64,000 nt of DNA from Eubacteriaceae bacterium. GTDB lineage: Bacteria; Bacillota; Clostridia; Eubacteriales; Anaerofustaceae. The notes under the pieces were generated by a model that was given only the letters and a program-made list of their open reading frames with translations, did no database searches and was not told the DNA's origin. Location: assembly GCA_017531485.1 (NCBI GenBank), contig JAFXKY010000026.1:1-64000 (forward strand). Direction: 5' to 3'. The position numbers were made by a program, and so were the translations under genes. Shown one piece after another: positions 32,625 through 48,057 of this stretch (its first letter is position 1; every line of letters starts with the position of its first letter).

Positions 32625-32653
32625 TTGACAACGAACTCCTTCGGTGATATAAT
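32625..32653 (+). promoter_or_regulatory. Consensus promoter of the leader peptide and ABC operon
   Basis: TTGACA, 17-bp spacer, TATAAT: a perfect sigma-A promoter. Transcription should begin near 32660, about 55 bases before the leader peptide. Confidence 0.9.
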
Positions 32654-32714
32654 GACCGCAATCAGAAAAGATATGAGAATATTCTGAAATTTAATCGAAA
32701 GGAAACGCAGTATA

Positions 32715-32789
32715 ATGAAAAACAGATTCTATTTCTATTATTATTACTTTAGAGATGCGGCGAAACGTTGTACTGCAGATACCCTTTAA
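32715..32789 (+). CDS. Phe/Tyr-rich attenuation leader peptide
   Basis: A 24-residue peptide starting MKNRFYFYYYYFRD. Residues 5-12 are all aromatic, five Tyr and three Phe codons in a row. It lies behind a perfect promoter and an AAAGGAAA site and ahead of an intrinsic terminator, upstream of an ABC importer. This matches ribosome-mediated attenuation leaders such as those of pheA and pheST. Stalling at scarce Tyr/Phe codons would leave GTTGTAC (32767-32773) free to pair with GTACAAAAC in the terminator's apical part and allow readthrough. When tyrosine and phenylalanine are plentiful the ribosome reaches the stop at 32787 and the terminator forms. The alternative pairing is my reading; the codon run is directly visible. 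Confidence 0.88.
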   Translation: MKNRFYFYYYYFRDAAKRCTADTL

Positions 32790-32810
32790 GATTTAAGGAA
32801 TTTGTAAAAT

Positions 32811-32862
32811 AACGTCCGTCGCTTCGTTTTCGTACAAAACGTGTTGACGGACGTTTTTTTAA
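32811..32862 (+). terminator. Attenuator terminator of the aromatic ABC operon
   Basis: AACGTCCGTC (32811-32820) pairs with GACGGACGTT (32846-32855) and an inner CGTTTT/AAAACG stem sits between them. A T run follows directly. It lies between the leader peptide and the first transporter gene. Confidence 0.9.
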
Positions 32863-35840: not shown

Positions 35841-35871
35841 TTGACTCTTACGTTACGTCATGGTTTATGAT
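35841..35871 (+). promoter_or_regulatory. MerR-activated promoter with 19-bp spacer
   Basis: TTGACT (35841-35846), 19-bp spacer, TATGAT (35866-35871). The spacer holds ACGTTACGT, typical of TipA/Mta-like operators. Autoregulation by the gene 22 bases downstream is likely. Confidence 0.75.
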
Positions 35872-35892
35872 ATAATCACCGTGGGAGGGAAT

Positions 35893-36618
35893 ATGAAGAC
35901 CGTAAATGAAATAAGCAAACTCAGTGGTGTCAGCGTAAGGACACTTCATCATTATGACCACATCGGTCTTTTGAAACCTGCGAAGGTGACAGAAGCAGGG
36001 TACCGTCTTTATGACGAAGAGAACATCTCCCGTCTTTTCAGCATCCTTCTTTTCAGAGAGCTGAGGTTTTCTCTTTCGGAGATAAAGGAGATCCTTGATG
36101 ATGAAAATTTCGACATGAAGAAAGCTCTCTCGGAGCAGATCAGGCTCCTCGAAACGGAAAGAGAGAGGATCGAAGGAATAATTACCCACGCGAAAAGATT
36201 ACTCAAAGGAGAAGGAACAATGAATTTCGATATGTTTGACGAAAAAAAGCTTGAGGAATACAAAAAAGAAGCCAAAGAAAAATGGGGAAACGCTCCTGCA
36301 TATGCCGAAAGCGAAGAAAAGACGAAGGGAAAATCAAATAAAGAGCTTTTCGCAACAGGCGAAGAACTTATGGATATCTTTTCACAGCTCGGAAAGATGA
36401 AAGACCTTGATCCGTCGGAAAAGGAAGTTCAGGAAAAGACGGAAGAGATCAAAAACTTCATCACGAAAAATTTCTACAACTGCACAAACGAGATCTTCTA
36501 CGGTCTGGGGCAGATGTATGTTTATGATGAGCGTTTCAGAAACAACATCGACGCAAAAGGCGGAAATGGAACTGCGGAATTCGTGAAGAAAGCAATAGAG
36601 ATATATTGCAAAAAATAA
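35893..36618 (+). CDS. MerR-family regulator of TipAL/Mta type
   Basis: The 241-residue protein joins an N-terminal MerR HTH (VNEISKLSGVSVRTLHHYDHIGLL, then GYRLYDEENISRL) to a coiled coil and a C-terminal TipAS-like drug-recognition domain. That domain ends FYGLGQMYVYDERFRNNIDAKGGNGTAEFV, a hallmark of TipAS. Such regulators bind diverse drugs or thiopeptides and activate their own gene. The ATG at 35893 has GGGAGGGA upstream; an in-frame ATG 33 bases earlier lies inside the operator. No drug pump is adjacent. Confidence 0.92.
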   Translation: MKTVNEISKLSGVSVRTLHHYDHIGLLKPAKVTEAGYRLYDEENISRLFSILLFRELRFSLSEIKEILDDENFDMKKALSEQIRLLETERERIEGIITHAKRLLKGEGTMNFDMFDEKKLEEYKKEAKEKWGNAPAYAESEEKTKGKSNKELFATGEELMDIFSQLGKMKDLDPSEKEVQEKTEEIKNFITKNFYNCTNEIFYGLGQMYVYDERFRNNIDAKGGNGTAEFVKKAIEIYCKK

Positions 36619-47818: not shown

Positions 47819-47844
47819 GGCGGCAATAAATCGAACAATGAATC

Positions 47845-47990
47845 GCTCGGATAGAGGCGCGGGGTTCATGAGTATCCGGAGAGTTTTGAGCAATTGCTTC
47901 CGGTGAAAGGGGATACCGCCGAAGGGCGCAGGGATGCTCGGCTCTGCGTGGCCTGGGTCGTCAGGAAATACCTGCCGGACTGTCACATTG
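47845..47990 (+). promoter_or_regulatory. Lysine riboswitch (L box)
   Basis: The aptamer shows the conserved L-box blocks in order: AGAGGCGC at the 3' side of P1, CATGAGTA, GGTGAAAGGGG, ACCGCCGAAGG, and GGCCTGGGTC, ending with CTGTCAC that closes P1 (GATAG with CTGTC). It is followed by a terminator hairpin at 48058-48087. Lysine binding should favour that terminator and shut off the ABC importer at 48123-50679. Transport substrate lysine is therefore well supported. Confidence 0.93.
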
Positions 47991-48057
47991 TAACTTTGTG
48001 AAGCGCTATCGTAATTCGGAGTTGGCAGACTTTTATTTTGCTTATTTCGTAATTTAT

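Follow-up and report, generated by a model that had tools for sequence, protein, structure and literature searches.

A predicted leader-peptide attenuator with tyrosine and phenylalanine codons upstream of an ABC importer operon in a gut Clostridia bacterium

The window (the whole stretch of 64,000 nucleotides that was analysed, from a gut Clostridia bacterium; locus L001) contains an operon for an ABC importer on the forward strand: a substrate-binding lipoprotein (SBP; PF04392, 32893–33894), a permease (PF02653, 33993–34922) and an ATPase (PF00005, 34923–35717). Upstream of these genes and on the same strand is a sigma-70/A promoter (TTGACA-17-TATAAT, with TG ahead of the −10 element; 32625–32653), which matches the consensus at 12 of 12 positions and is the only such match that a consensus scan detected in 5 kb. 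The promoter is followed by a Shine-Dalgarno-like AAAGGA (32698–32703) and by an open reading frame (ORF) of 24 codons plus stop (MKNRFYFYYYYFRDAAKRCTADTL*; 32715–32789), in which codons 5–12 (32727–32750) form an unbroken run of eight Phe or Tyr codons, i.e., three Phe and five Tyr. Between this ORF and the SBP gene is an intrinsic terminator (32811–32860), comprising a stem (32811–32820 with 32846–32855), an inner stem and a U run (32854–32860), with a folding energy of about −21 kcal/mol. The locus thus contains elements by which an attenuator is recognised: a short ORF with a ribosome-binding site situated between a promoter and a structural gene, and an intrinsic terminator situated between that ORF and the first gene. 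The leader peptide with its aromatic codons, the perfect promoter before it, the strong terminator after it and the ABC importer downstream had all been pointed out in a reading of the sequence alone, and each was found in its place. Immediately 3′ of the importer operon is a gene for a MerR-type regulator with a TipAS antibiotic-recognition domain (35860–36618); elsewhere in the window are a lysine riboswitch (47844–48016; Rfam RF00168, 90 bits) and, on the reverse strand, a bacterial large SRP RNA (367–629; Rfam RF01854).

The aromatic leader ORF is not a chance feature: when the upstream region was dinucleotide-shuffled 1000 times, no equally aromatic-rich ORF arose, whether or not a Shine-Dalgarno sequence was required. 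The RNA of the leader and terminator also folds far more stably than its shuffled counterparts (z about −4). SBP relatives were drawn from whole genomes and from GTDB contigs, and their upstream regions were oriented and scanned. Eleven SBP orthologues from ten genomes, that of the window included, are preceded by a short ORF rich in aromatic codons and, after it, a terminator (the other loci being L002, L036, two in L033, L013, L017, L021, L027, L009 and L030). Comparison with relatives had been named in advance as the test on which the proposal of an attenuator could fail, and the aromatic-rich leader proved to be kept at ten further loci. A sister species, represented by L002 (a locus in the only congener, G001, among the searched genomes), has the same consensus promoter layout ahead of its leader. 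The contig of L002 is that of L031, which bears the label Anaerofustis stercorihominis, and the host therefore most likely belongs to Clostridia, Eubacteriales. Across the groups, the leader peptides have little in common beyond their aromatic residues. In a strict shuffle test that required a Shine-Dalgarno sequence, and which leaves out L027 (TTG start) and L009 (Shine-Dalgarno sequence AGGTGAG), nine of the eleven loci were unmatched by any of 1000 shuffles; without that requirement, 0 of 1000 were as good for L027 and 2 of 1000 for L009. The run of codons is kept in relatives in the manner expected of regulatory codons for the amino acid that an operon serves, here probably Tyr and Phe.

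A particular arrangement is found in L033 (787–4113), where two tandem SBP genes, 82% identical, precede one permease and each has a leader and terminator of its own: the leader of the first contains six Tyr and no Phe, and that of the second contains seven Phe and no Tyr. Upstream of the SBP genes of L032 and L034 there is a terminator-like hairpin right after the promoter, with neither a leader ORF nor an antiterminator; CTCGTTTGCG occurs both in the L032 hairpin and in the terminator of L002, as though a deletion had taken out the sensor half. A phylum-wide search of 398 sampled genomes yielded, besides the window itself, no relative with more than 46% identity. In the organism's own genome, no second convincing aromatic leader was found; a TWYx6 pattern was tried for this purpose and abandoned, as matches to the backward-pattern control outnumbered the true matches.

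Attenuation by a leader peptide requires RNA structures that exclude one another, and the pairing first proposed for the antiterminator, GTTGTAC with GTACAAAAC, did not survive: 207 of 500 shuffles did as well or better, and relatives have not retained it. The supported pairing is instead that of 32757–32780 (segment 2) with 32800–32822 (segment 3). When codons 5–10 were masked by a ribosome and the RNA ended ahead of the 3′ arm of the terminator, the minimum-energy fold was the hairpin formed by these segments; as segment 3 overlaps the 5′ arm of the terminator (32811–32820), the hairpin takes that arm and therefore is the predicted antiterminator. The antiterminator was lost when codon 12 occupied the A site. 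With the ribosome at the stop codon, it was disrupted only partly in both L001 and L002, so that release of the ribosome and a further pairing, described below, would have to finish the job. At equilibrium, the full leader favoured the terminator in every case, so that the antiterminator must win kinetically. In L033, the antiterminator was not the best fold upon a mid-run stall.

A MAFFT alignment of the five close leaders put the terminator arms out of register, and pairs were therefore counted directly on L001 and L002, supplemented by duplex energies. The antiterminator helix is 20 bp in length. Relative to L002, it carries double compensatory changes at two pairs, along with two single changes and one broken pair at an end. 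At one of the compensatory positions (32766/32814) there is also a matching third change, at 32852 in the 3′ arm of the terminator; at position 32818, L002 has lost the terminator pair and kept the antiterminator pair. By duplex energy, the antiterminator outdid shuffled sequences in the window group as well as in L017/L021, was marginal in L027, and had no clear advantage over shuffles in L013, L009 and L030. For the window and its close relatives, folding in silico thus predicts an antiterminator that excludes the terminator and is favoured by ribosome stalling.

There is, in addition, a second conserved helix. Segment 1 (GCAGTATAATG; 32707–32717) covers the ribosome-binding region of the leader together with its start codon, and its partner is 32766–32776, in the C-terminal codons of the leader (duplex energy −18.3 kcal/mol; 0 of 500 shuffles). 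A comparable helix is present in L002, L036 and both leaders of L033, and in all five close leaders it is stronger than in shuffles (0 of 500 in four of them, 13 of 500 in L002). This helix overlaps segment 2 and so competes with the antiterminator; it would be the default-off helix, which would also shut the leader to re-initiation.

What the importer carries can be approached from its relatives and from its binding protein. A T-box lies upstream of about forty other SBP orthologues (40–49% identity to the window protein), and the specifiers that could be read are UAC (Tyr) or UUC (Phe). A UGG (Trp) specifier was found only for a paralogue of about 30% identity, L062, on contig C7 of the organism's own genome. 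Related importers in a single genome are thus under different modes of sensing; tyrS and pheS of this genome (gene names read by eye from the protein sequences) also have T-boxes. The description of the operon as TrpXYZ-like holds as a distant family resemblance and not as membership, as the window SBP scores 292.7 bits against the TrpX model NF041285, which has a curated cut-off of 390. The closest solved structure is that of the tyrosine-binding protein CD0873 of Clostridioides difficile (6HNI), in which Glu263 bonds the tyrosine hydroxyl and Tyr279 blocks tryptophan (PMC6816091). Equivalents of both residues are present in the window SBP, as in CD0873, and likewise in proteins with Tyr leaders, Phe leaders, Tyr T-boxes and Phe T-boxes, so that an attempt to assign Tyr or Phe from the pocket had to be given up; the two residues argue against Trp only. 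The paralogue with the Trp T-box has Ala at the position of Glu263. Tryptophan is thus disfavoured, and the protein residues do not separate Tyr from Phe. The operon probably imports Tyr and/or Phe, in agreement with the substrate proposed by the sequence-only reading, and the mixed codons suggest that both amino acids are sensed.

It had further been proposed that ribosome stalling replaces a T-box here. A maximum-likelihood tree of 93 SBPs gathers the Tyr and Phe T-boxes into a single clade (50 rows, support 100/97) and puts the SBPs with leaders elsewhere, at four separate positions (L017/L021, L013/L027, the window group, and L009/L030). The deep forks are poorly supported and many SBPs have neither leader nor T-box; thus, the tree does not choose between leaders having replaced T-boxes, having preceded them, or having arisen repeatedly, and gives the proposed replacement no direction.

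The ORF and its recurrence at eleven loci, the terminator, the competing helices with their compensatory changes, and the Tyr and Phe T-boxes of the relatives are together best accounted for by ribosome-mediated transcription attenuation that senses the charging of tRNA-Tyr and tRNA-Phe, which is very probably the mechanism operating here. Transcription would begin near 32660, and a ribosome would load onto the leader ORF. When charged Tyr or Phe tRNA is scarce, the ribosome would stall in codons 5–11, leaving segment 2 free to pair with segment 3, including the 5′ arm of the terminator; with the antiterminator formed, RNA polymerase would enter the importer operon. When Tyr and Phe are plentiful, the ribosome would reach the stop codon, cover the central part of the antiterminator and depart, upon which segment 2 would pair with segment 1, segment 3 would be freed, the terminator would fold and the importer would not be made.

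A stall anywhere in codons 5–11 would, according to the folding, yield the antiterminator, so that the ORF might also be imagined as a sensor of drugs or stress (of the BmrB or ABCF-leader type), in which any slowdown of the ribosome, rather than starvation for Tyr or Phe, drives readthrough; leaders that stall in this way are known in Gram-positive bacteria (e.g., PMC4191407). What has been kept among the eleven leaders, however, is aromatic codon content and no stall motif, the peptides being otherwise wholly different, and the target is an importer of aromatic amino acids with orthologues controlled by Tyr and Phe T-boxes, which makes a drug or stress sensor very improbable. Slighter still is the chance that the ORF makes a functional small peptide and that the terminator merely sets a low basal level: the C-terminal residues CCTS/CCAA do recur in the closest relatives, but this stretch is explained by RNA pairing, a change from R to C within it coincides with compensatory bases, and the motif is wholly absent from the other groups. 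An uncharacterised ligand riboswitch or T-box-like RNA, with the ORF incidental, is no likelier than the small peptide, since, although an alternative RNA fold exists, the leader region matched no Rfam family at threshold and no T-box (RF00230) even at an E-value of 5, and aromatic ORFs recur at eleven loci of unlike RNA sequence.

Attenuation by the leader peptide, as proposed ahead of an aromatic amino-acid importer by the sequence-only reading, is thus a well-supported prediction from sequence, of a kind of regulation already known in Firmicutes. The trp, phe and his attenuators of enterobacteria have leader peptides with runs of regulatory codons. In common with these, the window has a short ORF, a regulatory codon run, an exclusive antiterminator and terminator, and a target predicted to serve the same amino acid. 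It differs from them in that its codons are a mixture of Tyr and Phe, its target is an importer, the part of segment 1 is played by the ribosome-binding region of the leader itself, and segment 2 begins inside the ORF, directly after the codon run. Among Firmicutes, His-leader attenuators have been predicted for his genes in Clostridia and Bacillus (PMC9413887, PMC2965389); these would likewise control amino-acid metabolism and transport genes by leader-peptide attenuation, in a phylum where relatives have T-boxes, but involve histidine codons, his genes and unrelated sequences. The Leu-rich attenuator peptide of the ilv-leu operon of Staphylococcus aureus, which is experimentally supported (PMC5794164), is likewise a Firmicute leader-peptide attenuator and differs in its amino acid, leucine, and in its target, a biosynthetic operon. 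A Trp T-box is carried by the trpXYZ importer (trpX) of Streptococcus suis (PMC9382623). T-boxes on importers of the trpXYZ type likewise place the same importer family under tRNA-charging control via a terminator, but sense the tRNA directly, without an ORF, and a T-box is absent at the window leader. With CD0873, the likeness is at the level of the SBP only. In capped searches of open-licence papers, neither an attenuator with a Tyr or Phe leader for importers of this family nor any tyrosine-codon attenuator was found. The prediction comprises an unusual Tyr/Phe codon set, a conserved helix that closes the leader's own ribosome-binding site and, at one locus, L033, tandem paralogues with a Tyr-only and a Phe-only leader.

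Few leader-peptide attenuators have been described in Firmicutes, where tRNA charging is usually sensed by T-boxes and transcription is regarded as running ahead of translation. Bacillota are assigned to the class with runaway transcription, whose RNA polymerase leaves the ribosomes behind (PMC13323073). This would count against the proposed attenuation, as coupling would be weakened unless the polymerase pauses; by the same token, working attenuators of this type in Clostridia would be informative. More speculatively, and with doubt predominating, the Tyr/Phe attenuators may be a family that couples ribosome and polymerase tightly enough to register starvation, in a phylum assigned to the runaway class, with the segment 1 helix making re-initiation at the leader part of the switch, and with leader codons that co-evolve with the ligand of the SBP, as in L033. 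The Tyr-only and Phe-only leaders of the paralogues in L033 are a natural experiment on the joint evolution of the specificities of sensor and transporter. As the organism's own genome has T-boxes on tyrS, on pheS and on the Trp-type paralogue, both modes of sensing could be compared in one cell, and the leader codons offer a testable substrate for importers that are otherwise annotated as tryptophan importers or as of unknown substrate.
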